NCBI GenBank assembly: GCA_017695025.1
Contig: JADILX010000125.1
Span: 1-36,187, forward strand
DNA: 36,187 bases
Source: Candidatus Cryptobacteroides excrementavium
Lineage (GTDB): Bacteria; Bacteroidota; Bacteroidia; Bacteroidales; UBA932
Reading direction: 5' to 3'
A program made the position numbers and the translations under genes. How positions within the stretch are numbered: the first letter of the stretch is position 1; the number at the start of each line of letters is the position of its first letter. Positions 10,427-32,548 of this stretch are shown here, piece after piece. The notes under the pieces are model-generated. The model was not told the DNA's origin. It saw nothing but the letters and a program-made list of their open reading frames with translations, and ran no database searches.

Positions 10427-10431
10427 TTGTA

Positions 10432-10439
10432 TATATTTG
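10432..10439 (+). promoter_or_regulatory. Possible -7 element before malQ
   Basis: TATATTTG matches TAnnTTTG exactly and lies 15 nt before the chosen malQ ATG at 10455. There is no fitting -33 element, and the leader would be very short. It overlaps the TTG the ORF track uses as start, another reason to prefer 10455. Confidence 0.38.
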
Positions 10440-10454
10440 AAAAAAACTTCAACC

Positions 10455-12832: not shown

Positions 12833-13591
12833 CTACCGGCCTTCGAGCCAGCGGAGGAAATCTTCGGTGCGTGACCGGCTTACCATCATCTCGACAGGAC
12901 TTGCGGGGGCGGATTCTATCTTGAGTCTGCTCCCGATTTTCATTATACTCGAAATAGCCTGCATGGAAATGATGCAGTTGCGTGATATCCGGAAGAATTT
13001 TTGCGGATTGAGCTGGTCCATGGCTATGTCGAGAGAGAAATCGACTACATATTTCCTGCCTTTGAATGTAACAAGCCATGTCGTCTTGTCCTCAGAGTAG
13101 AACCATGCTATTTCGTCTGTCTTTACAGGGACAATGGTGTCGTTGATTTTCACAAGGAACCTCTCTTTTGCATGTCTCGGGGCTGTATCATGAAGAAGCC
13201 CTTTCTCCGGACGCGGACCCGGCACTCCTTTTGAGATTCTGGAGATGCATCTTTCCATGGCTCTTTTCAGGGCCTGCTCATCTACCGGTTTCAGCAGATA
13301 GTCGATGCTTTCCACCTCGAATGCCTTCACGGCATAACTGTCGTAGGCTGTGGTCATTATCACATTTGCCCTGATGTCGGTCTGGCTGAAGATGTCGAAA
13401 CAGGTGCCGTCTGAAAGTTCCACGTCCATGAAGATGACGTCGGCCCTGTTTTCCGGCTGGCCAAGCCACCTGAGAGTTTCTGTCACAGACCCGGTCTCTC
13501 CCGCAATTGTCACATCCGGGTATAGCCTTTTAAGTGTGTTGGCAAGACTTTTCCTTGCCATCAGTTCGTCTTCGACTATCAATATGTTCAT
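12833..13591 (-). CDS. LytTR-family response regulator
   Basis: This 252-residue regulator has a receiver domain (1-120) and a LytTR DNA-binding domain (about 148-250). The receiver has the acidic pair Glu7/Asp8 and Glu9, phosphoacceptor Asp56 in IFMDVELS, Thr80/Thr81 in the switch region and Lys101 in YLLKPVD. The LytTR part is recognised from RFLVKINDTIVPVKTDEIAWFYSED and FFRISRNCIIS. LytTR proteins bind pairs of 9-bp direct repeats. Such a repeat is found at 15111-15140 in front of the starch locus, so this protein is its likely ligand. Its ATG is 4 nt after the kinase stop, so the two form an operon. It converges on malQ. Confidence 0.93.
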   Translation of the reverse strand: MNILIVEDELMARKSLANTLKRLYPDVTIAGETGSVTETLRWLGQPENRADVIFMDVELSDGTCFDIFSQTDIRANVIMTTAYDSYAVKAFEVESIDYLLKPVDEQALKRAMERCISRISKGVPGPRPEKGLLHDTAPRHAKERFLVKINDTIVPVKTDEIAWFYSEDKTTWLVTFKGRKYVVDFSLDIAMDQLNPQKFFRISRNCIISMQAISSIMKIGSRLKIESAPASPVEMMVSRSRTEDFLRWLEGR

Positions 13592-13595
13592 CTCA

Positions 13596-15029
13596 TCAGA
13601 CAGTTAAAGGGTTGTTGTCAAGCAAAGGTATTGTCACTTTAAATTCATGGTCGTCGCACAGGATTTCTATCTCCTTGCCGGACATGAATCTGTATTGTTC
13701 CTGCAGATAGCGGAGCCCTACTTTGGTCGTGGGCCCGGCGCTTACTTTTGGGCGGCGGATGTTGGAAACGGACAGATGTCCCTCCCCGGCGGCAATCCTT
13801 ATCTGCAGCATCCCGTCCCCTCCCACGCGGTTGTGCTTTATGGCATTTTCTATCAGCATCTGTATTGAGCATGGGATTACATGTTTCCGGCATCCGAGGT
13901 CTTCGGGTATGTCGGTCACAACGCAGAATCCGTCTCCGAACCGTTCTTTCAGCAAGTCTACATACATTCCGACAAAGGTCATCTCGTCTTTCAGCGGGAC
14001 GCTCTTGCTGTCGTTCCGTAGCATGTATCTGTAGATGCATGCAAGTTTGTGTATATATGAACTGGCATGTTCTGTCTGGCCGTCCTGCACGAGGCAGTCC
14101 AGGATGTTGAGGGAGTTGAAAAGGAAGTGCGGATTGACCTGCCTGCGGAGTTGTTCATACTGGAACTGTGCATAGTCGGCTTTCCCTTTGGCTTCATACA
14201 TCGCGCTTCTTGTCTCAAGCGCATAGTCGATCATGTATACTATGGAATAGCATATCAGATATAGGGCGAGTGCCGCGACAAAGAGTTGCATGAATCTCTG
14301 GGCCGAGAAAGGCACTGATGTGTCCTCTGCGAAGATCCCTGTCCCTGCGGCAACGGCCATGGCCGAGGAAGTGGCGATGGCGGAGAGAAGTGTGGCGGCT
14401 GTCTTTGCAAGGGAGGACCAGTTGCGGCATTTTGTACGCAGGTATCTGACTGTAAGGATGACAAGGCACAGTATCATGACCAGTATCCAGGAATTTGAGA
14501 AGATACTGTCGGCTATTGTCAGTACATTGTCATCATATATCCAGTTGCTGGAGAAGGGAAGTGTCAGCATCATGCGGAACAGCAGTACGATGGCGAGTGC
14601 GCATGCCAGCCATAGTATGTGCTGTTTCCTGATGGTTTTGCCGGGGGGGGCATGTTTCCCTGTATTGTCCGATGTCTGCTGTCTGGAGTTTCGGCTGAAG
14701 ACAGTCAGGAACCCGAAGATGCCCCATCCGATGATTTCCGTTGTTGCAAATGTTGCCAGGGAATGTATGAGCAGTTCAGAGCCGGAGACCAGCGACAGGA
14801 GTCTGGCCCCTGATGTACCGAGCAGAAATCCGAGGACATTGGTCACGATGACTCCGGCTGCTGTCAGTTCGACTTTTGCTCCCAGCCGGATACCCAGCAG
14901 AACAACCATCATGATGGTCAGCAGGGTAAGCCATATCTCATCCGACACCCCGGTGTAGCGGCAGACCAGTACGGTCGCCACATGCAGCAGTGCGAACAGA
15001 TGTATTGTCTTGTCTACCCCGGCTTTCAT
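13596..15029 (-). CDS. LytS-like sensor histidine kinase (His_kinase family PF06580)
   Basis: This 477-residue kinase has an N-terminal membrane region (about 1-270) with six to eight hydrophobic segments and no large periplasmic domain. The phospho-accepting His301 is in QVNPHFLFNSLNILD, the signature of the LytS/YehU class, and the ATP-binding part has the N-box IENAIKHN (393-400) and TKVGLRYLQEQY. Sensing through membrane helices suggests a small or membrane-associated signal; its identity cannot be read. Codons near residues 127-129 contain a run of eight C (14643-14650, seen as G8 on the plus strand), in the linker between the two groups of membrane helices. It partners the LytTR regulator and is divergent from the starch transporter. 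Confidence 0.92.
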   Translation of the reverse strand: MKAGVDKTIHLFALLHVATVLVCRYTGVSDEIWLTLLTIMMVVLLGIRLGAKVELTAAGVIVTNVLGFLLGTSGARLLSLVSGSELLIHSLATFATTEIIGWGIFGFLTVFSRNSRQQTSDNTGKHAPPGKTIRKQHILWLACALAIVLLFRMMLTLPFSSNWIYDDNVLTIADSIFSNSWILVMILCLVILTVRYLRTKCRNWSSLAKTAATLLSAIATSSAMAVAAGTGIFAEDTSVPFSAQRFMQLFVAALALYLICYSIVYMIDYALETRSAMYEAKGKADYAQFQYEQLRRQVNPHFLFNSLNILDCLVQDGQTEHASSYIHKLACIYRYMLRNDSKSVPLKDEMTFVGMYVDLLKERFGDGFCVVTDIPEDLGCRKHVIPCSIQMLIENAIKHNRVGGDGMLQIRIAAGEGHLSVSNIRRPKVSAGPTTKVGLRYLQEQYRFMSGKEIEILCDDHEFKVTIPLLDNNPLTV

Positions 15030-15050: not shown

Positions 15051-15081
15051 CAAATTTAGACTTTTTCAGCGTAAGGGCAAA
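15051..15081 (-). promoter_or_regulatory. Promoter of the LytS/LytTR operon
   Basis: On the minus strand TTTG (15078-15081), an exact 19-nt spacer and TAAATTTG (15051-15058) match the Bacteroidetes promoter consensus at every defined position. The ATG is at 15029, leaving a leader of only about 15 nt. This is the best promoter in the window. Confidence 0.78.
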
Positions 15082-15110
15082 AATCAATTTGATTTCATCC
15101 TTAAAATATC

Positions 15111-15140
15111 ACCGTTCGTCACATCTTTTTATCCGCTCGT
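15111..15140 (+). promoter_or_regulatory. Candidate LytTR-binding direct repeat
   Basis: ACCGTTCGT (15111-15119) and TCCGCTCGT (15132-15140) lie in the same orientation with a 12-bp spacer. The first fits the published LytTR half-site pattern [TA][AC][CA]GTTN[AG][TG] at all nine positions and the second at eight of nine. The shared core is CCGYTCGTC, 21 bp apart, so both copies face the same side of the helix. The second copy ends 10 bp before the -33 element of the SLC45/sus promoter, a position that suits activation. Confidence 0.62.
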
Positions 15141-15150
15141 CTTTCTGCTT

Positions 15151-15181
15151 TTTTATATGGTGCCGACAATTTATATTTTTG
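15151..15181 (+). promoter_or_regulatory. Promoter of the SLC45/sus operon
   Basis: TTTT (15151-15154), a 19-nt spacer and TATTTTTG (15174-15181) fit the Bacteroidetes pattern, with one mismatch in the -33 element. A weak -33 next to the LytTR repeat is what an activator-dependent promoter would look like. The ATG is at 15210. Confidence 0.62.
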
Positions 15182-15209
15182 TCTCACCACATTAATTGAA
15201 GACACTGAA

Positions 15210-16631
15210 ATGAAAAAGCCAAGGTTGTCTTTCGGACAGATCTGGAATCTCAGTTTCGGATTTCTGGGCGTGCAGATAGGATATTCACTGCAGAATTCCA
15301 ACACATCCTCGATTTTCGAGTCATTAGGTGCAGATGTCAGCCACCTGAGTTATTTCTGGCTGGCGGCTCCGCTTGCCGGCATGATCATACAGCCCATTGT
15401 CGGCATGTTTTCTGACGGGACCTGGACAAGGTTCGGCCGGAGAATCCCGTATATTCTTGGAGGGGCGCTTGTCTCGACTGTCGCCCTGCTCCTTATGCCC
15501 AACTGCCCGGTGCTTCTGGCTATTGCCCCTCTGGCAATGGGGGCGTTCATCCTCCTTTTCATGGATCTTTCGTTCAATGTGACCATGCAGCCGTTCCGGG
15601 CTCTCGTGGCGGATATGCTGGATGATTCCCAGAAGACGCAGGGATATGTGGTGCAGACTTTTCTGATCAATCTCGGTGCCGTGATCGGGGCATTCCTCCC
15701 GCTGATGATGACGTGGTTCGGAGTCCCGGACGAGGCTGCTCCAGGCCAGGTGTCGAGGCATATTGCATATTCATACTATGCAGGAGGCATCATCCTCCTT
15801 CTGACTGTGCTTGTTACTTCGTTCAAAACCAAGGAATATCCTCCACAGGAGTTTGCTGAATACAACGGTCTTGACTGTGAGCCGGGCAAGGGAGACGGTG
15901 CAGAAGTCCATTCTGCCGGAGAAGACCATCCTGCCGGAGAAGGTATCCCGCAGGCAGCAGGTCCTGACAAGAAGCCGGGATTCCTGTCGCTCATGCGAAA
16001 TATCCCGAAGGTGATGCTCCAGTTGGGGGTGGTCCAGTTTTTCTCATGGGCTGCGCTTTTTCTCATGTGGACCTATCTGAAACCGGCAATTACAGGGGTC
16101 GTTACTGACCCGGCGACAGGACAGGTGCTTTCTGACGGGGCGACACAGACATGGGTGGGCGTTCTGAACGGCATATATCCGATACCGGCATGTCTGGTGT
16201 CCATTTTCCTGGGCCGCATAGCCGCAAGATACGGCAATAAGACTGTATATGCCCTATGTCTTCTTTGCGGGGCACTTGGCTTTGCCGGACTGATGTTCAT
16301 TCACAACCAGTATCTGATGATGCTGCCTATGGTTGGAATCGGCATAGCATGGGCCGGCATTCTCGCAATGCCGTACTCCATACTTTCCCGGGGTGTGGAT
16401 GCCAGAAGCATGGGCGCATATATGGGAATATTCAATTTTACCATTACAATCCCCCAGATTGTCATCGGGCTTACCGGCGGACTGATAGTGAAACAGGCTT
16501 TTGGCTCTGATGCAGGTCTCATGCTGGGGCTTGCCTCCGTCTTCATGCTCTTCGCGGCAATATCAGTTGCCTTTGTGCGCCAGACGGATTCCGGTCAGGC
16601 GTGCCATGTTACAGAGAAGAAACAGTTATGA
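15210..16631 (+). CDS. SLC45/GPH-type MFS sugar transporter (maltose or glucose uptake)
   Basis: This 473-residue inner-membrane protein has about twelve transmembrane segments. LSFGQIWNLSFGFLGVQIGYSLQNSNTSSIFESLGA and GMFSDGTWTRFGRRIPYILGG are typical of the SLC45/sucrose-symporter group of MFS carriers, which are found in Bacteroidetes starch loci and likely move maltose or glucose with protons. The hydrophilic loop near the middle (about residues 215-255) contains a short repeated SAGEDHPAGEG-like stretch. It is the first gene after the promoter and LytTR site. Only 32 nt separate it from susC, so it is probably the first gene of the sus operon. A near-consensus TACATTTT at 16632-16639 could give susC extra initiation. 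Confidence 0.87.
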   Translation: MKKPRLSFGQIWNLSFGFLGVQIGYSLQNSNTSSIFESLGADVSHLSYFWLAAPLAGMIIQPIVGMFSDGTWTRFGRRIPYILGGALVSTVALLLMPNCPVLLAIAPLAMGAFILLFMDLSFNVTMQPFRALVADMLDDSQKTQGYVVQTFLINLGAVIGAFLPLMMTWFGVPDEAAPGQVSRHIAYSYYAGGIILLLTVLVTSFKTKEYPPQEFAEYNGLDCEPGKGDGAEVHSAGEDHPAGEGIPQAAGPDKKPGFLSLMRNIPKVMLQLGVVQFFSWAALFLMWTYLKPAITGVVTDPATGQVLSDGATQTWVGVLNGIYPIPACLVSIFLGRIAARYGNKTVYALCLLCGALGFAGLMFIHNQYLMMLPMVGIGIAWAGILAMPYSILSRGVDARSMGAYMGIFNFTITIPQIVIGLTGGLIVKQAFGSDAGLMLGLASVFMLFAAISVAFVRQTDSGQACHVTEKKQL

Positions 16632-16663: not shown

Positions 16664-19600
16664 ATGAACAGAATTCTTTCCTTATTTGCGGGGCTTGTGC
16701 TTTTCGGTATTTTTGCCCCTCCCGTATCTGCCGATGGCGGATATGAGGTGAAAGGAGTCGTCTATGATCAGCTGGGGCCGGTCATCGGTGCCACGATTAT
16801 GGAGCAAGGGACTTCCAACGGAACATCATCCGGCCTTGACGGAGACTTCATCCTTGTCGTGTCCGGGCCGGATGCAGTGGTGGAGATCAGTTGCATCGGT
16901 TACAAGGCATTGTCGTTCAAGGCATCTGAACTTCCGGCCTCAATCACATTGCATGAGGATACGCTTTTCCTTGATGATGTGGTGGTCATCGGTTACGGCA
17001 CTGTTAAGAAAGAGGATATGACGGGCTCGGTCACTGCCATCAAGTCTGAAGAACTGAACAGGGGAGCGGTGGTCTCAACCCAGGACATGCTGAAAGGCAA
17101 GGTGCCGGGTCTGCAGATTATCCCTGGAGACGGCGGTCCGGGCTCGGGTTCGACAATCCGTATCCGCGGTGCTGCATCCCTGAATGCCTCCAATGACCCG
17201 CTCATCGTGATAGATGGGGTCCCTATCGCTGTGGACGGCGGTGCAGGAATGGCCAATCCTCTTGAGACCATCAATCCGAACGATATAGAGTCCTTTACCG
17301 TGTTGAAGGACGCATCTTCCGCTGCCATCTACGGCTCACGTGCCTCTAACGGTGTCATCATCATCACCACAAAGAAAGGCAAGGGCTCAAGGCCGCAGGT
17401 AAGTTACAGCGGAAGCGTGAGCGTGCAGACAAATTCAAAGCGCATTCCTACGATGACTCCGGGCGAGTTCCGCGACTTCGTAAACACAACGTTCCCTGCC
17501 GGGACACCGACAGGCGACTATATCCAGGAGCATATGGGTACTGTGGATACTGATTATCAGGATATGGTTTTCCGCACAGCCATTTCGCATGACCACAACG
17601 TGAGCCTCAGCGGAAACGTGAAGGAAAGGATGCCGTACAGGGCGTCAGTTGGCTGGACCAGCCAGCAGGGTACCCTCCATACATCCAAGTACGACCGTGG
17701 TACGGTAGACATCAGCCTGTCACCGAATTTCTTTGACAAGCATCTTACTGTCAGCCTCTCGGGACGTGGAGTGTACACTGACCAGACGTATGCGAGCGGG
17801 AGTGTGGTAGGTGCGGCGGCATTTTTCAATCCTACCCAGGACCCTTATTTCAGGAACGATGACGGTTCGATAGACTATACAACGACTAACGGATTCTGGA
17901 ACTATGGTTCCGGACGCGGAGAAAATTTCACCCCGAACAACCTTCTTGGGGCAGGCCCCCTGTCACAGTTGTTCGATGTGGAAAACTGGGGAAAGGCCAT
18001 GAGAATGATAGGCAATGTGTCGGCGGACTATAAGGTCCATGGCTTTGAGGCCTTGAAGTTCAACCTCAGCCTTGGCCTTGACATGTCGAAATATACTGCA
18101 TACAGCGGAGTGAACCCTGGCTCATACCAGGCCTATGCCGATACTGAGAACAGAGGGATAGGCCAGCATTCAGAATCTGTCAATTTCCGCCGCAACCAGG
18201 TCCTCGAGTTCTACGGCAACTTCAACAAGGAGTGGGGGATACACCATCTCGACCTGATGGCCGGATATTCATGGCAGCATTTCTACAGTTCTGACCGCAG
18301 TGTGACCTATTTCAATGTCACAAACGAGCAGAAAGGCGATGACTCCCGTTATCCGCGCAACAGACAGGAAAGTTACCTGGTCTCTTTCTACGGGCGTATA
18401 AATTATTCCATCGACTCCAGATACCTGTTTACGTTCTCATTGCGAAATGACGCATCGTCGCGCTTCTCGCCTGACACGCGCTGGGGTCTCTTCCCTTCCG
18501 GAGCCTTTGCGTGGAACATCAAGGAAGAGCAGTTCCTTAAGAACTTCTCTCCGCTGACACAACTTAAACTCCGTCTCAGCGCCGGTCAGACCGGTCAGCA
18601 GGAAATCGGAAGCAATTATCCGTATATGGCCATATATAATGTGTCTTCGGATGTCTACAAGCAGTATTACATGGGAGATGCCGGCTATCAGTTCTATGTC
18701 ACTCCGGGAGCCTATGATCCTGGCATAAAATGGGAAACTACTACCACCTATAATGTCGGGGTCGACTTCGGCTTTTTCAATGACAGGCTCACGGGTAATG
18801 TGGATGCGTATCTTCGCCAGACCGACGACCTCTTGAACAGCGTCATCATACCTGTGGGAGCCAGTTTCGGAAATACCGTACTCACAAATATCGGTTCGAT
18901 GCAGAACAAGGGCCTGGAATTTTCCATCAATGCTATTCCTGTCCAGACTGAAGACTGGCATCTGTCCATAGGATTCAACGGGACGTTCCAGGACACAAGG
19001 TTCACCAAACTGAACAATAGCAATGATCCGGATTATGCCATCCAGGTCGGCAGCATCAGTAAGGGTACCGGCAGCATGCTCAGTGTACACAAGGTGGGCT
19101 ATGCCCCGTATTCATACAGGACATTCCAGCAGGTCTACGATTCTGACGGAAATCCTATCCAGAATGCTCTCGTGGACAGGGACGGGGACGGCAGCATCAC
19201 TGATGCCGACCGTTACATCTCCGGCAAGAGCCCGAATGCGAAATTCTATTATGGACTGAATCTCAAGCTGACCTGGAAAAACTGGGATTTCGGGTTCAAT
19301 GGCCATGGTTCTGCAGGAAACTGGCTTTTCAATGATTTTGCATCTTCCAACTCTACCGCATATCTGGACATGAACAGCGGAAACCTTCCTAACTTTGCAA
19401 AATATGTCAAGACGACAGGCTTTACTGAAGCCAACAGCGGTGAGCAGTGGTATTCGGACATGTTTCTTGAGAATGCCTCTTTCTTCAGGATGGACGATAT
19501 AAACCTCGGCTACACTTTCAGGGATATCAAGAACTGGAACGGAGACATAAGGCTGGCGTTCAGCGTCCAGAATGTATTCGTCATCACCGGGTACAGCGGA

Positions 19601-19693
19601 GTCGATCCTGAACTGCCGGGGACTACCGGTATCGACAACACCATGTGGCCGAGGCCTAGGACATATTCACTGAGGGTGAACATTAACTTTTAA
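16664..19693 (+). CDS. susC: SusC-type TonB-dependent outer-membrane transporter
   Basis: This 1009-residue protein would import starch oligosaccharides across the outer membrane with TonB energy. A signal peptide ends at PVSA (about residue 23). A carboxypeptidase-regulatory-like domain follows (about 28-105, EVKGVVYDQLGPVIGATIMEQG). The TonB-box region DDVVVIGYGTVKKEDMTGS is typical, and a plug domain contains IRIRGAASLNASNDPLIVIDGVP and the SusC hallmark LKDASSAAIYGSRASNGVIIITTKKG. The remainder is a 22-stranded barrel ending in a terminal Phe (RVNINF). It is followed 15 nt later by susD. Starch specificity is inferred from the neighbouring amylases. Confidence 0.96.
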   Translation: MNRILSLFAGLVLFGIFAPPVSADGGYEVKGVVYDQLGPVIGATIMEQGTSNGTSSGLDGDFILVVSGPDAVVEISCIGYKALSFKASELPASITLHEDTLFLDDVVVIGYGTVKKEDMTGSVTAIKSEELNRGAVVSTQDMLKGKVPGLQIIPGDGGPGSGSTIRIRGAASLNASNDPLIVIDGVPIAVDGGAGMANPLETINPNDIESFTVLKDASSAAIYGSRASNGVIIITTKKGKGSRPQVSYSGSVSVQTNSKRIPTMTPGEFRDFVNTTFPAGTPTGDYIQEHMGTVDTDYQDMVFRTAISHDHNVSLSGNVKERMPYRASVGWTSQQGTLHTSKYDRGTVDISLSPNFFDKHLTVSLSGRGVYTDQTYASGSVVGAAAFFNPTQDPYFRNDDGSIDYTTTNGFWNYGSGRGENFTPNNLLGAGPLSQLFDVENWGKAMRMIGNVSADYKVHGFEALKFNLSLGLDMSKYTAYSGVNPGSYQAYADTENRGIGQHSESVNFRRNQVLEFYGNFNKEWGIHHLDLMAGYSWQHFYSSDRSVTYFNVTNEQKGDDSRYPRNRQESYLVSFYGRINYSIDSRYLFTFSLRNDASSRFSPDTRWGLFPSGAFAWNIKEEQFLKNFSPLTQLKLRLSAGQTGQQEIGSNYPYMAIYNVSSDVYKQYYMGDAGYQFYVTPGAYDPGIKWETTTTYNVGVDFGFFNDRLTGNVDAYLRQTDDLLNSVIIPVGASFGNTVLTNIGSMQNKGLEFSINAIPVQTEDWHLSIGFNGTFQDTRFTKLNNSNDPDYAIQVGSISKGTGSMLSVHKVGYAPYSYRTFQQVYDSDGNPIQNALVDRDGDGSITDADRYISGKSPNAKFYYGLNLKLTWKNWDFGFNGHGSAGNWLFNDFASSNSTAYLDMNSGNLPNFAKYVKTTGFTEANSGEQWYSDMFLENASFFRMDDINLGYTFRDIKNWNGDIRLAFSVQNVFVITGYSGVDPELPGTTGIDNTMWPRPRTYSLRVNINF

Positions 19694-19708: not shown

Positions 19709-21409
19709 ATGAAAACGAGATATAATAAATTCTTATCTTTCGCAGCCGGACTGCTTGTGGCATCCGGAATGACATCCTGCATCGGAGATCTGGATACCGT
19801 TCCTCTCAACCCGAACGACAAGGTGGAGCAGAATGCGTATGGTACTGATGAAGCCGGCTATCTGCAGGGGCTGGCCAGACTCTATTTCCAGTTTATTACC
19901 AATGACACCAAGGACCTGCAGGTCAGCGATGGCGGGTCGGCGGAACTTATCCGCGCCTACTGGTCCGTGCAGGAGACTTCTACTGACGAGGCCAAATGCG
20001 CATGGAGCGATGATGCCTGGGTAAGGGCCCTCAATACGAACACATGGACCGAAGCCCAGAATGACGCTACTTATGCCGTCTATGTAAGGACATTGCAGGG
20101 GATTGTCTATATCAACGATTTTCTCCGTCAGACGACCGATAAAAAACTGGAGGAACGCGGTGTCGGCCCTGAAGTGGCTGCCAAGGTGGCGGGGTTCAGG
20201 GCGGAAGCAAGATTCCTGAGGGCATATCTTTACTGGATAGCCGTTGATACTTTCGGCAATGTGCCGTTTATCACCGAGGATTCGCCTTTCGGGATAAATG
20301 TTTTGCCTGAGCAGGGCACCCGTGCCGAGATTTTCAATTTCTGCATAGATGAACTTGAAGATCTTGTCGCTGACGGCAGTGCCATGCCGGAGGCAAGGAC
20401 GAATTATCCGCGTGCGGACAAAGGTTCCGTCTACGGCCTTCTCGCCCGGATGTATCTGAATGCTGAGGTATATACTTCCGTGCCGATGTGGGAAGAGGCC
20501 AAGGCCGCCTGCGAGAAGATATTTACAATGGGATATCAGTTGTGTCCAGACTATGCCTCCCTGTTCCGCGGGGACAACGGGGAGAATCTGGAGGCACGGA
20601 ACGAATTCCTTTTCGCGATAGCATACGATGCCGAGAATTCGCAGTCTTTCGGCGGGACTACCTATCTTACATTTGCAGCGATAGCCCAGGACGATATCCG
20701 CGAGATGGAAACTGATACTCCGGACGGGAAACAGACAGTAACGTATTATCCTAACGGAGTAAACGGAGGCTGGGGCGGCATCAGGGTTCCGTATGAGTTT
20801 GTATTGAAGTATTTCCAGGTCGAAGACACCGACTATTCTTCTGGCGAATATACCTGCACCGACAAACGCGGACAGATGTTCTGCATCGCAGGCCGGGAGG
20901 AATCGATGGAAGATGCTCTCTATGTATTCCTGAACGGATGGTCATGCCTGAAATTCAACAATGTGCCTCATGACAAGACTCCTGAGGAATACGGGGATGT
21001 AGCCGTGACGAAGGCTTACAGCGACATCGATTTCCCTCTTATCCGTCTTGGAGAGATTTATCTGATCTATGCGGAAGCCTGCCTCGAACTCAATGAGCCT
21101 GAAACAGCCCTCCAGTATCTTCAGGATCTTTCTCAGAGAGCCGGAGTAGAAGCCCCTGAAGGCTACAACAGGAACTATCTTATAGAAGAACGGGCTAGGG
21201 AACTGATGTGGGAAGGCCACCGCAGGACTGACCTTATCCGCTGGGGTGTTTTCCACACTTCCGATTTTCTCTGGCCATACAAGGGCGGAGACTCGTTCCG
21301 TGGACAGGGATTCGACCAGTACAAGACATTGTTTGCACTGCCTTTGACCGACATTACGGCCAACGGTACCCTCGTGCAAAATCCGGGATACAAGCAGACT
21401 GAAAATTAA
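19709..21409 (+). CDS. susD: SusD-type starch-binding lipoprotein
   Basis: This 566-residue surface lipoprotein forms the lid of SusC and helps deliver glycan to it. The lipobox is MTSC with Cys24, followed by IGDLDTVPLNPND, the usual SusD/RagB opening (LDTVP-NP). The TPR-like helical framework is visible in EAGYLQGLARLYFQF, AEARFLRAYLYWIAVDTFGNVPFITED and RADKGSVYGLLARMYLNAEVY. The C-terminal SusD part has IRLGEIYLIYAEACLELNE and ERARELMWEGHRRTDLIRWG. The length is close to that of B. thetaiotaomicron SusD (about 550). The susE-like gene starts 8 nt after its stop. Confidence 0.96.
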   Translation: MKTRYNKFLSFAAGLLVASGMTSCIGDLDTVPLNPNDKVEQNAYGTDEAGYLQGLARLYFQFITNDTKDLQVSDGGSAELIRAYWSVQETSTDEAKCAWSDDAWVRALNTNTWTEAQNDATYAVYVRTLQGIVYINDFLRQTTDKKLEERGVGPEVAAKVAGFRAEARFLRAYLYWIAVDTFGNVPFITEDSPFGINVLPEQGTRAEIFNFCIDELEDLVADGSAMPEARTNYPRADKGSVYGLLARMYLNAEVYTSVPMWEEAKAACEKIFTMGYQLCPDYASLFRGDNGENLEARNEFLFAIAYDAENSQSFGGTTYLTFAAIAQDDIREMETDTPDGKQTVTYYPNGVNGGWGGIRVPYEFVLKYFQVEDTDYSSGEYTCTDKRGQMFCIAGREESMEDALYVFLNGWSCLKFNNVPHDKTPEEYGDVAVTKAYSDIDFPLIRLGEIYLIYAEACLELNEPETALQYLQDLSQRAGVEAPEGYNRNYLIEERARELMWEGHRRTDLIRWGVFHTSDFLWPYKGGDSFRGQGFDQYKTLFALPLTDITANGTLVQNPGYKQTEN

Positions 21410-21417
21410 CACGATAT

Positions 21418-24336
21418 ATGATGAGACCATTTGGATATATAATGATGATGGCAGCGGCCGCCACTCTGACGTTCGGCTGCCAGCAACTCGAAGAAATGCG
21501 GCTCCTGCCGCCTGAGCAGGTCGTGCCGCCGGTTCTCAATCCGCTCGGAATAACCGAACTCGTGATTACGGACGACAATCTTGACGAGACGGTGTCCTTT
21601 GCCTGGGATGCCGCCGATTTCGGAGTACGTGCACAGGCTTCCTATACCATCGAGGCGGAATACGATGATCCTGTGTCAGGTACAGAAGGGACGAGGGTCG
21701 TCATTTCACAGGGTATTGCCGGCACGTCCTACGAGGCTTCCTATGAGGACATAAACTATATGCTCGGCCTTGCCGCCGATATGGGTGGAGCCGGAGTGCC
21801 GCTGGATACTCCGAGCGATGTGGATTTCTATGTCAGTGCATCAGTGGGAACAGGCGGGGAAAAGTATTATTCCGAGCCTGTAGACCTGAAAGTCACAGTG
21901 ATATATGCCGAGCCGAGATATCCGAAAGTATGGGTAATCGGGAAATACTGCAACTGGGAGCATGCCCGTTCGCAGTTCCTTTTCAGTTTCGACAGCAATG
22001 CGGAGTATGAAGGCGTGGTGGATTTCGGGCAGAATCATCTGGACTACAATTCCGGAACATCCGATGATGCCGGATTCAAACTGACAGGAGCGGCCAGCTG
22101 GAACAATGCTACCGGGAACTGGGGCCTCGGCGGTACTGCCCCGGAAGAGGAGGCAGAGCAGATAACCCTCTCCGTGGCCGGAGGCAACATCGCCAATGTC
22201 TACGGATACAGATACTACAGTTTTGCATTCAATACCACTACGCGCAGACTGACTAAGCAGGTCGGATTTGACAGATTCGTTGTCAAAGGCTCGGCCATAG
22301 GGGATGAGGAGCGGGAAATGACATTCGATACAGGCTCGCAGGAGTTCTATATCGATGCGGCTCTTGAGGCAGGAGACCTTCTCTTCGGGTTTGCGGACGG
22401 AGCGGAAAGGACCTGGCTCGGTTCATTGACCACAGGCATACTCGACGGAGCCGGGGCGAATCCTGTCACAGCGCCTGCCGGCGAATACAGAATCTATGTA
22501 AATCTGAATAATACGGAGGAGCGCACATATGAATTCAATGCCGGGGATTATGGCAAGGAGACTGAAGACGAGGAGGAAATCACCGATCCTACAGGTCATA
22601 CATGGGGTCTGACAGGTGATGCCATCAATGACTGGGGAAATGCAGTAGATACCGAGACCGGAGAGGCTGTTCCTGATACTCCTCTGGTCCTTGACGGTGA
22701 CTATTATGTGCGCAAGAATGTGCATCTTACTGCCGGCGAGAAGTTCAAATTGCGCTACGACAACAGATGGCAGGATGACGAGACATCTGAAAACCTCAGT
22801 TTCGGCGGCTATAATGGGGCCGAAGTCGGGCTGGAGTCAGGCAGAGGTGTACAATTGTCGCGAGGCGGCGGTAATCTCCATGTCCTGGCAGATGGAGACT
22901 ATGATATCTATTTCAACGAATCTATGGCCCTCATCCACATCCGTGAAGCAGGCTCAGAGGCTCCTGGTGCCGTTACATGGGGAATTGTGGGCTCATTTAC
23001 CGGATGGGCAGACGGAGAGGATCTGGAGATGACACGTGCCGAGGACAGGAATGCCGGATACTATGTTTACGAAGGGCTCGGCCTGACCACCGAAGATTCC
23101 TTCAAGTTCCGGAACGGCAACGCCTGGGTCTATGACTCAAGCAACCAGATAGCCGCTGGCAGCAGCGACCCTGTGTCAGTCGGAACAGCCTTGAGTCTGG
23201 TCAAAGGCTCCTCTTCGAATGATATCAAAGTGGCTGAAGACGGTACGTACGATATCATTCTTTATCCTGAGCAGGCTTTTGCATACATCATCAGTTCCGG
23301 TGCGGACTTCGAAACCCCTGCTAAAGTATCATGGGGAGTGACCGGTACCATGACAGGCTGGCTGAATGACAGGGACATCCTGATGGATTCCGAAGACGGA
23401 TATTATGTCATAAAGGGCCTTGATCTGTCTGCAGGTGCGGAATTCAGGCTCAGGTACGGGAACAATGACGGCAGCCGCAGTTATGGCCTGTCCGCGGATA
23501 CTCCGATGGAGGCTTCCCCTGATGCACATCTTCTGACATCCGGAGGACAGGGCAGAATACGGGTGAGCGAAGCGGGAGAATACGATATCTATCTTAATGA
23601 AGAATACGGAGTGATGTATATGCTCGAGTCCGGCTCGGAGGCACCGGCGCCGTTCAGTTTCGGCATCCAGTCCAACATTACCGATGGAATGCCGGACCTG
23701 ACCATGACGGCAAATGGAGAGTATTTCGTCTGCAAGAATGTCTGGTTCCCGTCGGGTGTGGACAACTGGCTGAAGGTCAGGGTAAGCAGTAATGACGGTA
23801 TCACATGGGGCGGAACATACATAGACTATGACACCAAGATCTCCGCTGTGCTGGGAGGTGATGCCATAGTCCCGACCGATGTCATACCGGGATGGTCCGG
23901 GGCCTACGATGTCTGGTTCAGTTATGACCGTCAGGAAATCTATATAATGGGTCCTGGCAAGCATCCGTCAGAGGCTGCAGGGGAGGTGTCCGAGTGGGGA
24001 ATCGTCGGACATTTCAGCGACTGGGGCAATGACAGGATGATGTCCATGGAAAGGGGTATCTTTGTCTACAGAGGCCTGACTTTTGACACGGACAATGATT
24101 CTTCTACGGGGTCCAATGCGATCAAGATCAGACTCGGAGGCGGCTGGGACAACGGCGGCAATATCGGGCCTTCCGGCAGTGATGTCAATGCTATCCCTGG
24201 TGATGCAATAACTGTCATAAATGACGGCGGGTCGAAAAATATCATTGTCCCGAAAGGAACATACGACATCTGGTTCGATCCCGAAGCCATGAAAGTCTGG
24301 GTGATGTCTTCCGGCCAGATCCCTTCCGGTTATTAG
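21418..24336 (+). CDS. Enlarged SusE/SusF-like multi-module starch-binding lipoprotein
   Basis: This 972-residue protein begins with a lipobox LTFGC (Cys21) followed by acidic residues, as in surface-exported lipoproteins. A SusE N-terminal Ig-like domain spans about 35-165. I then see seven repeated modules, beginning near residues 169 (PKVWVIGKYCNW), 287 (FVVKGSAIGD), 394 (HTWGLTGDAINDW), 519 (VTWGIVGSFTGW), 637 (VSWGVTGTMTGW), 746 (FSFGIQSNITDG) and 858 (SEWGIVGHFSDW). Most end in a DIYFNE-like or DIWF strand and an I(Y/H)I or VWVM strand. These look like the starch-binding modules of SusE (two) and SusF (three), so one polypeptide here would replace both. The fourth to seventh modules are most alike and suggest internal duplication. 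Module 6 lacks the GW motif. It would trap starch at the surface. Confidence 0.82.
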   Translation: MMRPFGYIMMMAAAATLTFGCQQLEEMRLLPPEQVVPPVLNPLGITELVITDDNLDETVSFAWDAADFGVRAQASYTIEAEYDDPVSGTEGTRVVISQGIAGTSYEASYEDINYMLGLAADMGGAGVPLDTPSDVDFYVSASVGTGGEKYYSEPVDLKVTVIYAEPRYPKVWVIGKYCNWEHARSQFLFSFDSNAEYEGVVDFGQNHLDYNSGTSDDAGFKLTGAASWNNATGNWGLGGTAPEEEAEQITLSVAGGNIANVYGYRYYSFAFNTTTRRLTKQVGFDRFVVKGSAIGDEEREMTFDTGSQEFYIDAALEAGDLLFGFADGAERTWLGSLTTGILDGAGANPVTAPAGEYRIYVNLNNTEERTYEFNAGDYGKETEDEEEITDPTGHTWGLTGDAINDWGNAVDTETGEAVPDTPLVLDGDYYVRKNVHLTAGEKFKLRYDNRWQDDETSENLSFGGYNGAEVGLESGRGVQLSRGGGNLHVLADGDYDIYFNESMALIHIREAGSEAPGAVTWGIVGSFTGWADGEDLEMTRAEDRNAGYYVYEGLGLTTEDSFKFRNGNAWVYDSSNQIAAGSSDPVSVGTALSLVKGSSSNDIKVAEDGTYDIILYPEQAFAYIISSGADFETPAKVSWGVTGTMTGWLNDRDILMDSEDGYYVIKGLDLSAGAEFRLRYGNNDGSRSYGLSADTPMEASPDAHLLTSGGQGRIRVSEAGEYDIYLNEEYGVMYMLESGSEAPAPFSFGIQSNITDGMPDLTMTANGEYFVCKNVWFPSGVDNWLKVRVSSNDGITWGGTYIDYDTKISAVLGGDAIVPTDVIPGWSGAYDVWFSYDRQEIYIMGPGKHPSEAAGEVSEWGIVGHFSDWGNDRMMSMERGIFVYRGLTFDTDNDSSTGSNAIKIRLGGGWDNGGNIGPSGSDVNAIPGDAITVINDGGSKNIIVPKGTYDIWFDPEAMKVWVMSSGQIPSGY

Positions 24337-24363: not shown

Positions 24364-27006
24364 ATGAAAAGATACATAATACCGATCATCCTTACTGTCT
24401 GCGCCATCGCGATGCAGGGATGTACGGACATGGCAGAAGAACTTCCTGCCGGGACTCTGACCGTATCCAGAACCACCCTCTGGTTCGATGCCGAAGGCGG
24501 ACGCCAGATTCTCGAACTGAGAACATACGCCGGCTCATGGACCGTGTCGCAGGATGAATCTTCCAAAGAATGGTGTACCCTCGACAAGACGGAGGGCACC
24601 ACATCATCATCGTTCTATGTGGAGACGGGCGGCAACCCTGACCAGCAGAGGGAAGGCGTGCTCACCGTTTCCGCTCCCGGATGCGAGCCGGTGAAAGTGC
24701 GGCTGGTGCAGAACGGGGAGGCAGACGAGCAGATGACCCTCATTCCGGAATCTCCGGATGCGGATGAGCCGCTTACCATCATCTACAAGCCTGTCCCGGA
24801 CTCTCCTCTCTACGACTACAACGGGGAAGTCTACATACATGCCGGTGTCGTTGAGGGTGACTATTGGAAATTCACCCCGTCTTCATCCGATGTCAATATC
24901 GAGAAATGCCGGATGGAAAAGGTGGGGGACAATACCTGGTCCCTTGAAATGGAGCCTACTGTCAGGGAATGGTTCGGCTCAGGAGAGTCGGAGGTTACCC
25001 GTCTGGGCCTTCTTATCCGCAGCGAGGACCATGGACTATCCGCTTTCAAAAAGAACTATTACATAGAAGTCACTGATACAAAGTACGCCCTTGAACATTC
25101 TGCTCCTGTTGAGGAGCCAGTGCCGGACGGCTGTATCTACGGTATCAACTACGGTGCCGACGGGACTTCCGTGACATTCGTCTTTGCCGCATACAACAGG
25201 ACATGGTGGAATGAACCTGTGGGCGGCAAGACTACAAGAAGCTTCGACTACTGCTACCTCATCGGGGACTTCAACGGCTGGCTCCCGTCCCAGGAGTATG
25301 CCATGAAATGGGACAAGGAAAAGGGTGCATGGTGGTACACTCTGACAGGTCTGGATCCGACCCGCGAATACATGTTCCAGTATCTGATAGGGAAAAACGA
25401 TGCTGATGCTCAGAAAGACGGTATCGCCACACAGATGCGTCTGGCCGATCCGTTCACTACCATAGTCTATACGCAGGACGATCAGTATATCCCGTCATCC
25501 ACCTATCCGGGGATGCCGGACTATCCTTCCAACACTTCCGGTATCGTATCGGCTTTCTGTATAAGTCCGGAAGAGTACGTATGGCAGCACGATGATGATT
25601 ACGAGATCAAGGATGAGAACGATATGCTCATCTACGAACTTCTTCTGCGCGACTTCTCAGAATCGGGAGACCTGAAAGGCGCCATGGAGCATTTGGAGTA
25701 TCTGAAAGAACTCGGTGTGGATGCGGTAGAACTGATGCCGGTACAGGAATTCGACAGCAACGACAGCTGGGGCTACAACCCGTACTCCCATTTCGCCTTG
25801 GATAAGACATACGGCACAAGAGAGCAGTACAAGGAATTCATAGATGCATGCCATGGTCTGGGAATGGCCGTATTCATAGATGTGGTCTACAATCACATGA
25901 CAGGGAACGCCACCATGACCAAACTTTTCTGGAATCCCAAGACAAACAATGTCTCGGAGGAAAATCCATGGTTCAACGAGATTGCCCCTGCCGGCTATAA
26001 AGTCTTTCAGGACATGAATCACGGAAACCGGTTTGTGCGCGACTATGTGACCCGCAGCCTCGGCTATCTCATCACCGAGTATCATGTGGACGGTTTCCGT
26101 TTCGATGTTTCCGGCAGTTTCAACTGGACTGATGATGACCCGGTAGGACAGCGTAAGGAAGTCTTCGAATATTATTACAATTCTCTCGTAAACACGGCTT
26201 CGGATGCCGGTAGGCCTAAGCCGGTGGTGATTCTGGAGCATTGGCAGGGCGAGGATGAGGAGAAATATCTTGCGGATCTCGGCATGCACTGCTGGCGTAA
26301 TACGAATAATGCCTACCGCCAGTGTGCGATGGGCTATCCTGACGGAGGGGACCTTTGGAATGTATGGTCAGGAAGCAACGGTATGAGACATGGCGGCTAT
26401 GTCTCCTATATGGAGAGCCATGATGAGGAGAGAATGCAGGCAAGCATCCTTTCGTATGCTACAGCCCCGTTCAAGGAAGACGTTTCGGAAAGAGTCAAGA
26501 GAAACGCCCTTGCAGCAGCATTCTGCCTGACGGTTCCCGGCCCTAAGATGCTCTGGCAGTTCCAGGAACTCGGCTATGACGTATCCATCAACGCCGGAGG
26601 CAGGACTTCGAGGAAGCCGGTACACTGGGACTATTATGATGACCCTGCCAGGAGGGCGGTTTACGGACATTATTCCGACCTGATGGAATTCCGGCATGAC
26701 AACCCTGAATTTTTTGCCGGGGATTCACAGTTCTCATGGAAGGTAGGTTACGACAACTGGACTACGGGCCGTTTCATCACCTGCACTTCTCCTGACGGCT
26801 CCAAATCGTTCGTGGTGGCAGGCAATTTCGACTCCCAGAGCAGGAGACTGTATGTGGAAGTCCCTTCTGACGGGACATGGACCAACTATCAGAATCCGGC
26901 TGAGACCTACGCCGCATCGGCTGCCGGCGACCGCATCGCAGTCGAACTCGGACAGGGCGAATACATCCTTTTGACAAATTTCGGTTACAGTGTTGACAAT
27001 GAATAA
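24364..27006 (+). CDS. Surface GH13 alpha-amylase with BACON and E-set domains
   Basis: This 880-residue lipoprotein (lipobox MQGC, Cys20, followed by TDMAEE) has, in order, a BACON domain (about 31-118, LTVSRTTLWFDAEGG...VKVRLVQNG), a beta-rich domain (about 120-240) and an E-set/CBM48-like domain (about 255-345, YLIGDFNGWLPSQEYAM...YMFQYLIG). The GH13 barrel covers about 420-800 and a short C-terminal beta domain completes it. The catalytic residues are complete: DVVYNH, nucleophile Asp581 in GFRFDVSG, acid/base Glu625 in ILEHW and Asp687 in ESHDEER. The acidic residues after the lipid Cys suggest surface display, so it likely fills the role of SusG, although the domain set differs from SusG. 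The GH13 subfamily and the alpha-1,4 or alpha-1,6 preference are uncertain; EHW in place of the usual E(A/P/T)W pattern hints at a distinct subgroup. Confidence 0.88.
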   Translation: MKRYIIPIILTVCAIAMQGCTDMAEELPAGTLTVSRTTLWFDAEGGRQILELRTYAGSWTVSQDESSKEWCTLDKTEGTTSSSFYVETGGNPDQQREGVLTVSAPGCEPVKVRLVQNGEADEQMTLIPESPDADEPLTIIYKPVPDSPLYDYNGEVYIHAGVVEGDYWKFTPSSSDVNIEKCRMEKVGDNTWSLEMEPTVREWFGSGESEVTRLGLLIRSEDHGLSAFKKNYYIEVTDTKYALEHSAPVEEPVPDGCIYGINYGADGTSVTFVFAAYNRTWWNEPVGGKTTRSFDYCYLIGDFNGWLPSQEYAMKWDKEKGAWWYTLTGLDPTREYMFQYLIGKNDADAQKDGIATQMRLADPFTTIVYTQDDQYIPSSTYPGMPDYPSNTSGIVSAFCISPEEYVWQHDDDYEIKDENDMLIYELLLRDFSESGDLKGAMEHLEYLKELGVDAVELMPVQEFDSNDSWGYNPYSHFALDKTYGTREQYKEFIDACHGLGMAVFIDVVYNHMTGNATMTKLFWNPKTNNVSEENPWFNEIAPAGYKVFQDMNHGNRFVRDYVTRSLGYLITEYHVDGFRFDVSGSFNWTDDDPVGQRKEVFEYYYNSLVNTASDAGRPKPVVILEHWQGEDEEKYLADLGMHCWRNTNNAYRQCAMGYPDGGDLWNVWSGSNGMRHGGYVSYMESHDEERMQASILSYATAPFKEDVSERVKRNALAAAFCLTVPGPKMLWQFQELGYDVSINAGGRTSRKPVHWDYYDDPARRAVYGHYSDLMEFRHDNPEFFAGDSQFSWKVGYDNWTTGRFITCTSPDGSKSFVVAGNFDSQSRRLYVEVPSDGTWTNYQNPAETYAASAAGDRIAVELGQGEYILLTNFGYSVDNE

Positions 27007-27007
27007 T

Positions 27008-28258
27008 ATGACGCACATGTTAAAAATGTTTGCCGCTACGGTGATTGTCACCGTAGCAGCGACATTGTCCGGATGTTCCGGACAGGCTGATAAAAAAGCA
27101 TCCGTTCATCCAGACTGGTCGTACAATGCAGTCATCTATGAAATGAATGTCAGGCAGTATACTCCCGAAGGGACTTTTGCTGCAGCGGCAGAGCATCTTC
27201 CGCGTCTGCAGCGGCTTGGAGTGGATGTAATCTGGCTGATGCCGGTCTATCCTATCGGGATTGACCAGAGAAAAGGGACACTCGGTTCGTACTATGCCAT
27301 TTCCGACTATTGCGCGATAAATCCCGAGTTCGGCACGATGGAAGACTTCGAGAAGTTCCTTTCGGGGGCCCACGATGCCGGTTTCAAGGTGATTCTCGAC
27401 TGGGTGGCCAACCATACTTCACCTGATGCCGTGTGGGAATCCGAAAGGCCTGCCGACTGGTATGTCCGTGATTCTCTAGGCAATACCGTTACCCAGTATG
27501 ACTGGACTGATATAGCCGAACTCAACTATGACAATCATGACATGAGGGAGGAGATGCGGAATTCCATGCGTTTCTGGCTTGACAAGGGCGTAGACGGTTT
27601 CCGTTGCGACATGGCCTGCGAAGTGCCGATGGATTTCTGGAGAGAGACCCTGCCTGAACTCCGCCGCGAATATCCAGGGACATATTATCTTGCCGAGGGC
27701 GAGAATCCGGAGTTGCATCAGGGGGCGTTCGATGCTTCCTATGCATGGGAACTGCATCATCTGCTGAATGGCATAGCACAGGGGAAGAAAGGTGCCGCAG
27801 ATCTGGTGGCATATATTGAAAAAGATGCAGCGGCCTGTCCTCCGGAGGCTTTCAGGCTTATGTTCACATCTAATCATGACGAAAACTCATGGGCAGGAAC
27901 GGAATTTGAACGGATGGGCGATGCTGCTGAAGCCATGGCTGTCCTGACATTCACTCTTCCGAACGGGCAGCCTCTCATATACACCGGCCAGGAAATGGGA
28001 TGGAATCACAGGTTCGAGTTTTTCGAGAAAGATCCGGTGCCTGCATGGGAAGAGAATGAACATACGGATTTCTATAAGGAACTTATCCGTATCAGGCATG
28101 AGAATCCGGCTTTGGCTGCAGGTGAAAAGGGAGGAGCATTCGAGGTGGTTTCCGCGTCTGACAGTGTGTTTGTCTTTACAAGGACATTGCCGGGGAATCA
28201 GGTGACCGTATCAGTGGAAATGTGCGAACCGTGGGTCTGGGATATTTCCGTCGACTGA
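27008..28258 (+). CDS. Compact GH13 alpha-amylase-family lipoprotein
   Basis: This protein of about 416 residues has a signal peptide and lipobox LSGC (Cys23). The GH13 barrel starts almost at once (WSYNAVIYEMNVRQYTPEGTFAAAAEHL). Catalytic residues are Asp201 in GFRCDMAC, Glu230 in YLAEGENP and Asp291 in SNHDENSW, with DWVANHT as the first conserved region. There are no accessory binding domains and the C-terminal domain is short. The residues after the Cys (SGQADKK) are not strongly acidic, so it may face the periplasm; this is inference. The track uses a GTG at 26990, but ATG at 26999 or 27008 is better. I chose 27008, 1 nt after the preceding stop, giving tight coupling. Its specific product profile cannot be read. 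Confidence 0.87.
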   Translation: MTHMLKMFAATVIVTVAATLSGCSGQADKKASVHPDWSYNAVIYEMNVRQYTPEGTFAAAAEHLPRLQRLGVDVIWLMPVYPIGIDQRKGTLGSYYAISDYCAINPEFGTMEDFEKFLSGAHDAGFKVILDWVANHTSPDAVWESERPADWYVRDSLGNTVTQYDWTDIAELNYDNHDMREEMRNSMRFWLDKGVDGFRCDMACEVPMDFWRETLPELRREYPGTYYLAEGENPELHQGAFDASYAWELHHLLNGIAQGKKGAADLVAYIEKDAAACPPEAFRLMFTSNHDENSWAGTEFERMGDAAEAMAVLTFTLPNGQPLIYTGQEMGWNHRFEFFEKDPVPAWEENEHTDFYKELIRIRHENPALAAGEKGGAFEVVSASDSVFVFTRTLPGNQVTVSVEMCEPWVWDISVD

Positions 28259-28336: not shown

Positions 28337-30268
28337 ATGAAATCCATAAAAAACATAATAATGTCTTCAGCCATTGTCGGAGCCATATCCTGCGGAAGCG
28401 GCACCACTTCCGGTCTGTCATCCATAGAGGATGCAGGAGACAAGATAAGGCGTGTCGAGCCGCTTTCCTGGTGGACAGGTATGAATACACCTCTCCAGTT
28501 GCTTGTGCATGGGGAGAATATTTCGGAGTACGATGTCCGTATCGAAGGCGAAAGAGGAGTGAAAGTCTCACGGGTGCACAGGGTGGACAGCCCCAACTAT
28601 CTGTTCGTGGACATAGACATTGCTCCCGGTGCCACTCCGGGTACGTACAGTCTTGTGTTCAGCCGTGACGGCAAGAGTTTCAGTTATCCGTATCAAATCA
28701 ACGCCAGAGAGAAGGGCTCCGCTTCACGCGGCAGTTTCACTACGGCCGACATGATTTATCTGATAATGCCGGACCGCTTTGCCAACGGCGACCCGTCCAA
28801 CGATTCTACGTCGGATACGGCGGAAAAGGCTGACCGGGAGGAATTCTTCGGCAGGCATGGAGGCGACCTGCAGGGAATAATCGACCATCTGGACTATATC
28901 GCCGACCTGGGAGCTACCGCCATCTGGAATACCCCGCTGCTTCTCGACGATGAGCCGGAGGGCTCATACCATGGCTATGCCTGTGCCGACTATTATCATA
29001 TCGACCCGAGGTTCGGGACAAATGACCTGTACAGGGAGTTCGTGCAGAAAGCGCATGACAAGGGCCTGAAAGTCATAATGGATATAGTCACGAACCATTG
29101 CGGTACTGCGCACTGGTGGATGAAGGACCTGCCTTTCAAGGACTGGATCCATGTATTCCCGGAGTATACGGGGACAAATGTATGCTTTTCCACCAATATG
29201 GACCCGAATGCCTCGAAGTATGACCTCAATCTGCAGGAGAGCGGCTGGTTTGTGCCATCGATGCCGGACATGAACCTCGACAATCCGTATGTCCTCAATT
29301 ATTTCAGGCAGTGGGCCATATGGTGGATCGAGTATTCAGGGCTCGACGGCTTCAGGGTTGATACATATCCGTATAATGAAAAGGACCCTATGAGCGAGTG
29401 GTGCGAGGCCATACTTGCCGAATATCCGGGTTTCAACATCGTCGGGGAATGCTGGACATCATCCATCCCGCAACTTGCCTATTGGCAGGGCGGCAATGAA
29501 AACAAGGACGGATTTGACTCGCATCTTCCTTCAATCATGGATTTTCCGTTGCAGGAAGCCATCTGGAAAGGCCTTCCGACGGATTCCCATGCCTGGGGAG
29601 AAGGCATGACAAGAGTCTATGACTGTCTTTCGCATGACTTCGTGTATCATGACCTGTCAAAGATGATGATTTTCCCGGGCAACCATGACACGGACCGTAT
29701 AGGAGATGTCCTGAAACACAATGCCGACAGGCACAGGATAGTGATGGCAATGATGGCTACCATGCGCGGTATCCCGCAGATTTTCTATGGGGATGAAATG
29801 ATGTTCGTCTCAAAGGACAGATCCCAGGGACATGGCGGTCTCCGTGTTGATTTCCCTGGCGGCTGGCCTGGGGACAGGCTTGACTTTTTCTCCGAGGCCG
29901 GCAGGGCTTCTGCGAAGGTCAGCACGGACGGAAAGCCTGTGCCGGAGGGACAGATTGCATCTCTCCACGACTATACGAGACGCCTTTTCCAGTGGAGGAA
30001 GGACAAGCCTGTCATTCACAACGGCAAGACAATGCACTTCCTGACAAGGGACAACACCTACGCATATTTCAGATATGACGATACTGATGCAGTATTTGTC
30101 TATATCAATAATTCCCGGGGAAAGAAGCATGTCCCGTGGTCACATTATGCCGAGATAGCTGAAGGCCTGCATGACGGGCGCAATGTTATTACGGGGGAAC
30201 CGGCGGAGGTTTCCGATTCGACTGTTGTCGGACCGCGCCAGGTGCTTGTGGTCGAATATAAGAGATAG
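28337..30268 (+). CDS. susA: SusA-type neopullulanase/cyclomaltodextrinase (GH13)
   Basis: This 643-residue protein has a short signal with lipobox AISC (Cys19). The N-terminal Ig-like cyclomaltodextrinase domain (about 35-130) has VEPLSWWTGMNTPLQLLVHGENIS. The GH13 barrel follows, with MIYLIMPDRFANGDPSND and GGDLQGIIDHLDYIADLG. Catalytic residues are Asp342 in GFRVDTYPY, Glu371 in VGECW and Asp451 in GNHDTDR. A small C-terminal beta domain ends it. B. thetaiotaomicron SusA is similar in length (617) and acts in the periplasm on maltooligosaccharides and pullulan. Here a lipid anchor is predicted; the residues after the Cys (GSGTTSG) lack the acidic surface-export signature, so the periplasmic face is likely. 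It is separated from the previous gene by 78 bp with a REP-like element. Confidence 0.9.
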   Translation: MKSIKNIIMSSAIVGAISCGSGTTSGLSSIEDAGDKIRRVEPLSWWTGMNTPLQLLVHGENISEYDVRIEGERGVKVSRVHRVDSPNYLFVDIDIAPGATPGTYSLVFSRDGKSFSYPYQINAREKGSASRGSFTTADMIYLIMPDRFANGDPSNDSTSDTAEKADREEFFGRHGGDLQGIIDHLDYIADLGATAIWNTPLLLDDEPEGSYHGYACADYYHIDPRFGTNDLYREFVQKAHDKGLKVIMDIVTNHCGTAHWWMKDLPFKDWIHVFPEYTGTNVCFSTNMDPNASKYDLNLQESGWFVPSMPDMNLDNPYVLNYFRQWAIWWIEYSGLDGFRVDTYPYNEKDPMSEWCEAILAEYPGFNIVGECWTSSIPQLAYWQGGNENKDGFDSHLPSIMDFPLQEAIWKGLPTDSHAWGEGMTRVYDCLSHDFVYHDLSKMMIFPGNHDTDRIGDVLKHNADRHRIVMAMMATMRGIPQIFYGDEMMFVSKDRSQGHGGLRVDFPGGWPGDRLDFFSEAGRASAKVSTDGKPVPEGQIASLHDYTRRLFQWRKDKPVIHNGKTMHFLTRDNTYAYFRYDDTDAVFVYINNSRGKKHVPWSHYAEIAEGLHDGRNVITGEPAEVSDSTVVGPRQVLVVEYKR

Positions 30269-32548
<2,280 letters not shown>

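Follow-up and report, generated by a model that had tools for sequence, protein, structure and literature searches.

A LytTR-type tandem repeat array ahead of the starch operon of Candidatus Cryptobacteroides excrementavium as candidate binding site of the neighbouring response regulator

Among the regulators of Bacteroidetes PULs, SusR-like proteins, hybrid two-component systems, and ECF sigma/anti-sigma pairs have been named (PMC3878776). The stretch of DNA analysed here, further referred to as the window (36,187 nucleotides of contig JADILX010000125.1 of Candidatus Cryptobacteroides excrementavium), contains a starch operon that is flanked by genes for a LytTR response regulator and a membrane histidine kinase, and in the ORFs covered by Pfam scans of the window no further regulators were identified. 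This raises the question whether the regulator-kinase pair controls the starch operon and, if so, through which DNA element.

Genes of the starch operon and the regulator-kinase pair

The operon comprises eight plus-strand genes with intergenic gaps of -17 to 78 bp. It starts with the gene for an SLC45/GPH-like MFS sugar transporter (15210..16631), followed by those for SusC (16664..19693; TIGR04056, 752 bits), SusD (19709..21409; PF07980), a SusE-like outer-membrane protein (21418..24336; PF14292), an alpha-amylase family protein with a BACON domain (24364..27006), another alpha-amylase family protein (26990..28258), a cyclomaltodextrinase of the neopullulanase type (28337..30268), and, as last gene, a GH97 alpha-glucosidase (30332..32548). 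Hence, a SusC/SusD pair adjoins alpha-glucan-active enzymes, as in a sus-like starch PUL. A pyruvate formate-lyase-like gene on the minus strand (33440-35668) is convergent with the end of the operon.

The response regulator (12833..13591, minus strand), the proposed binder of the array described below, consists of a receiver domain (PF00072; 51.1 bits) and a LytTR DNA-binding domain (PF04397; 53.4 bits), both above the cut-off. Its phospho-acceptor Asp (D56) and receiver Lys (K101) are invariant in an alignment of 21 sequences. The protein scored below the NCBIfam cut-off for LytR and reached 87.1 bits for the BtsR equivalog NF008677, of which the cut-off is 246. The kinase (13596..15029, minus strand) contains a PF06580 His_kinase core (78.4 bits), with the N-P-H-F box NPHFLFNSLN at residues 299-308 and an invariant H301. 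Its N-terminal 280 residues gave no significant Pfam match, and a 5TM-5TMR_LYT sensor domain was not matched in the kinase even at E ≤ 10. The predicted structure (pLDDT 86.5) shows some eight long helices, which precede the kinase core and extend into it. This model resembles solved kinases in its cytoplasmic part only, the best being GanS (TMq 0.28 over the whole chain), and none of the 50 structural matches listed was usable for the membrane part. As the PF06580 core is present without the LytS sensor, the designation LytS kinase, used in an earlier sequence-only reading of this DNA, is right for the catalytic core but not for the membrane sensor; as judged from its sequence, the kinase is not a classical LytS. 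A separate short ORF seems to encode the membrane N-terminal part of the kinase in some genera (L128:4097-4447 and L020), and genus g7 has a kinase-like ORF that is oriented convergently to the regulator gene. The genome under study also harbours a second LytTR regulator-kinase pair in another neighbourhood (L143; G000:C71), the regulator of which is about 34% identical.

A tandem repeat array and its conservation

The regulator-kinase pair is divergent from the SLC45-like transporter gene, and the 180-bp gap in between contains the array. The 9-mers ACCGTTCGT (15111-15119) and TCCGCTCGT (15132-15140) are in direct orientation with a 21-bp period, exactly as the sequence-only reading had claimed. 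Overlooked therein were a third copy and the base C that follows both 9-mers, so that the conserved half-site is 10 nt long. The array thus consists of half-site 1 (ACCGTTCGTC; 15111..15120, plus strand), the promoter-proximal half-site 2 (TCCGCTCGTC; 15132..15141, plus strand), and a degenerate half-site (TGATTTCATC; 15090..15099, plus strand), 21 bp upstream of half-site 1 and in the same register. The pair 15090/15111 has a profile score of 19.6 bits. With half-sites of 10 nt and spacers of 11 nt, the array has the format of LytTR target sites, which are repeats of 9-11 nt with spacers of 11-13 nt (PMC4847170). Its pattern, with at most two mismatches, occurs once in the window versus 0.01 times expected. 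Nevertheless, a motif-free 7/9 direct repeat at 21 bp arose in 31% of the Markov shuffles of the 180-bp gap, indicating that the single sequence is weak and that support must come from comparison. A degenerate form of the half-site, defined post hoc, gave an 18/18 pair in 0 of 5,000 shuffles at any spacing of 18-24. On the far side of the regulator (9053-12794), the gene for a GlpT/UhpC-like MFS transporter is followed by that for a GH77 4-alpha-glucanotransferase, and no strong array was found ahead of them.

Genome-wide motif counts were based on IUPAC patterns with mismatches. In the organism's own genome (2.02-Mb assembly, 129 contigs), the strict pattern with at most two mismatches was found at one site only. 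Similarly, the sole exact match of the broad pattern was the array site, its other matches having one or two mismatches and a rate close to that of a reversed-pattern control, and across 30 relatives the exact matches were located mostly at the transporter promoter. This genome-wide uniqueness looks like that of a one-operon switch.

Of 400 genomes sampled from the genus, 222 encode a protein related to the regulator (E ≤ 1e-50), and 80 regulator loci made up the footprinting set. The regulator-kinase pair and transporter-SusC are arranged divergently at nearly all loci of the genus and also in G005, which belongs to another genus; this arrangement is kept even where the transporter identity is only about 38-45%. 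Across the regulator loci, the array recurs at a similar distance from the transporter start. A de novo search of 60 related promoters for a 10-nt motif that recurs with a constant period, all periods from 12 to 32 bp being allowed, was won by 21 bp, with a log-likelihood of 784 and the motif CCGTTCGTCC (next-best distance, 410); the half-site consensus across promoters approximates DCMRYTCRTC. A third copy at -21 is common, this being the clearest additional enriched offset over 63 loci. Profiles derived from one transporter clade detected the pair in all promoters of the other clade, in both directions (p ≤ 0.01), and the same profiles were at or near background on reverse strands and regulator-less promoters. 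Moreover, all 59 further loci, with promoters from named genome records outside the training set, were positive (p ≤ 0.01); those labelled 'Alistipes' have different half-sites and low scores. The latter loci (L277-L313) carry variant arrays such as ACCGTTCGGT / GCAATTCGTC / CCCTTTGGGT, again with 21 bp and often farther from the transporter start. Three half-sites were present at the locus of Alistipes sp. CHKCI003 (L242). A contig labelled Clostridia bacterium (L308) bears this Bacteroidales locus as well, probably through a binning error.

Promoter geometry, gene order and linkage with the regulator

The array is located between two promoters. The divergent kinase promoter possesses a -7 element (TAAATTTG; 15051..15058, minus strand) and a -33 element (TTTG; 15078..15081, minus strand), both consensus and separated by a 19-nt spacer. 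The SLC45/sus promoter combines a -7 element (TATTTTTG; 15174..15181, plus strand), searched for in the Bacteroidetes form TAnnTTnG, with a weak -33 element (TTTT, 3/4; 15150..15153, plus strand). The kinase promoter thereby agrees with what had been read from the sequence before. In the window, 32 bp separate the promoter-proximal half-site (end 15141) from TATTTTTG (start 15174). Exactly 32 bp was also the commonest distance between the second half-site and the -7 box (29 of 63 loci), with 31-33 bp in 36 loci, 42-44 bp in seven, and 52-54 bp in 15, several of the last with an extra copy in between. As these distance classes are about 10.5 bp apart, the regulator would meet the polymerase on the same side each time. 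A complete TTTG -33 element occurred in only two of 58 array-bearing sus promoters, versus seven of 21 kinase promoters with a recognisable -7 element, including that of the window. A weak -33 element together with a phased array is the layout expected for an activator that compensates for a missing -33 contact; it is from this promoter geometry alone that activation, rather than repression, is proposed.

The same intergenic position may also be read differently, in that the regulator would bind the array mainly on behalf of the divergent kinase-regulator operon, as autoregulation, or would repress the sus operon. Indeed, the upstream copy is only 8 bp away from the kinase -33 element, between the two promoters, and a site beside a -33 element could serve repression too. 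However, orientation and distance of the array are fixed relative to the transporter -7 box, and of the two promoters in the window, that of the kinase matches the consensus at both -33 and -7 already, whereas it is the sus promoter that lacks the -33 element. Other gene orders argue in the same direction. Elsewhere in the family, some genera have kinase and regulator pointing the same way as the transporter, and others have only the regulator divergent from it. In most of these gene orders, 21-bp arrays with a TTCRTC-like core and diverged first bases were present upstream of the transporter, several of them in rearranged loci being read by eye below the scan threshold; most of the other gene arrangements had thus not lost the repeat. 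Upstream of kinases that face a GH77-like gene in other genera, no pair reached the threshold except for a weak 22-bp pair in L136, so that kinase-proximal or GH77 control is unsupported there. As the array stays with the transporter when the gene order changes, the target kept by evolution is the transporter-sus promoter. The kinase autoregulation suggested earlier as a possibility was accordingly not supported as a conserved trait, no convincing kinase-upstream pair being found in genera with a non-divergent arrangement of kinase and transporter, although in the window's own arrangement it is possible from the position of the sites. Taken as a whole, control aimed mainly at the kinase, or repression of the sus operon, is considered unlikely.

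Several loci outside the genus differ in their surroundings. In other genera of the family (L126, L128, L131-L134, and L136), the kinase is divergent from a protein of about 880 amino acids, the start of which suggests a starch-binding domain joined to GH77, as identified by eye and not by a profile. In G579, belonging to another family, three ACCGTTYARC-like copies, 21 bp apart, precede transporter-susCD, and the regulator is on a different contig. In family f3 (G541 and G756), the regulator is near the transporter and an array was not seen under the score used.

Linkage with the regulator was assessed by means of a control set of 20 transporter loci, taken from genomes in which the regulator search had given no strong hit. 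At six of these, a regulator or kinase relative turned out to be adjacent; five carry the repeat, and the sixth (L156) reaches a p-value of 0.017 only. The repeat was found in none of the 14 control loci without regulator. Over 79 loci, it was hence present in 64 of 65 regulator-adjacent SLC45/sus promoters versus 0 of 14 regulator-less ones. The transporter tree, in which the long branch of L094 is doubtful, has at least four changes of the trait on supported branches; on the best tree there are eight. In independent pairs, repeat and regulator changed alike in 3.9 out of 4 on average and never in opposite directions; as four pairs cannot reach 0.05 in a sign test, the strength lies in the tabulated counts and the held-out scores. 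All 14 regulator-less genomes encode other LytTR proteins (one to six each) and have no repeat, by which the idea that any LytTR protein suffices was rejected. According to the sequence-only reading, the repeat should persist alongside the conserved gene pair, a check that its hypothesis passed strongly (64/65, 59/59, and the held-out scores).

These data bear as well on the idea that another regulator, such as a LytTR paralogue, SusR, a hybrid two-component system, or a LacI protein, binds the array and that the neighbour is coincidental, which is even less probable than autoregulation or repression. Two more LytTR proteins are encoded by the organism's own genome, and the predicted motifs of SusR and hybrid systems are direct repeats too (PMC3878776). 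Yet, the presence of the array tracks the neighbouring regulator and not other LytTR proteins. Furthermore, the direct repeats predicted upstream of the sus operon for SusR of Bacteroides thetaiotaomicron are 67 or 77 bp apart (PMC3878776), unlike the 21-bp period of the window array, and LacI-type sites are palindromes, one of which precedes the transporter in other families instead. In the latter families of the Bacteroidales (L320, L323, L325, and L326), a palindrome like GCAAACGTTTGA or GCAAACGTTTGCA is located upstream of the SLC45-like transporter and no LytTR array was seen, which suggests LacI-type control at these loci. Finally, that the repeat is a by-product of chance or composition is hardly credible, for a bare 7/9 direct repeat is unremarkable (the 31% of shuffles mentioned above) but held-out conservation, spacing scan, -7 phasing, and genome-wide uniqueness refute chance.

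Proposed mechanism and relation to known systems

What was established directly is that the array exists, is conserved, occurs together with the regulator, and keeps a fixed phase to the -7 box. The best reading of these observations is that the array (15090-15141) represents the binding site of the neighbouring LytTR regulator, which would activate the SLC45-susCDE-amylase-GH97 operon, with a probability of roughly 0.8. Counted against it were the p-value of L156, the altered half-sites in some distant clades, the two f3 loci without array, and the occurrence of the degenerate pattern at about chance rate elsewhere. The control of the sus operon by the LytTR protein, as put forward by the sequence-only reading, is in this way well supported by conservation, regulator linkage, and phasing, from which binding and activation are inferred.

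The membrane kinase would phosphorylate the LytTR response regulator, possibly upon a starch- or maltodextrin-related signal. Phosphorylated regulator molecules may then occupy neighbouring half-sites along one face of the DNA. From this position immediately ahead of a promoter that has a good -7 but a weak -33 element, the regulator might recruit RNA polymerase, which would transcribe the SLC45-susCD-susE-amylase-GH97 operon.

Such a mechanism would have its closest counterparts in Escherichia coli. The BtsS/BtsR (YehU/YehT) system, acting on yjiY/btsT, likewise involves a LytTR regulator and a LytS-type kinase that activate a transporter gene. Its yjiY oligonucleotide contains the half-sites GCCGCTCA, ACCGCTTA, and ACCACTCA, with starts 20 and 21 bp apart (PMC4847170), which are close to the window-type ACCGYTCRTC at 21 bp. 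However, the regulator described here is not a BtsR according to NCBIfam, the kinase lacks the LytS sensor, and the target is a SusCD starch operon instead of a pyruvate transporter. In the YpdA/YpdB system, acting on yhjX through the 10-nt tandem repeat GGCATTTCAT (PMC4847170), the LytTR regulator YpdB has a single target, namely an MFS transporter gene (PMC4847170, PMC5552118); half-site and pathway differ from those of the present locus. As for the Bacteroides systems, SusR activates a homologous starch operon with predicted direct repeats upstream, but it is a single membrane protein with far wider repeats, whereas the present system is a two-component pair. The hybrid two-component systems of Bacteroides PULs share the kinase-to-regulator logic over susCD operons. 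In these, however, a single fused polypeptide combines a large periplasmic sensor with a DNA-binding domain of the AraC type, whereas the present locus encodes two proteins, with a LytTR domain and an input part that is mostly intramembrane. A LytTR regulator of a sus operon was not found in the full-text literature searched, a scope outside which most subscription journals fall; for one Firmicutes arabinoxylan PUL, a LytTR regulator is given in a table (PMC5320581).

In this lineage of gut Bacteroidales, a dedicated LytTR switch may thus have taken over the starch operon in place of SusR or hybrid systems. Its eight-helix kinase input part would belong to no described sensor family and might read maltodextrin or the energy state from the membrane or cytoplasm rather than from the periplasm. 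This wider picture is tentative and is given somewhat less than an even chance. A LytTR route of starch operon control is not described in the literature searched. The array would constitute a specific cis-element with a clear footprint prediction, and the input domain of the kinase, which matched no known sensor domain, is a likely starch-related sensor. The switch would be shared by Candidatus Cryptobacteroides and neighbouring genera, a large group of gut bacteria, mostly uncultured, for which the present data come chiefly from metagenome assemblies.
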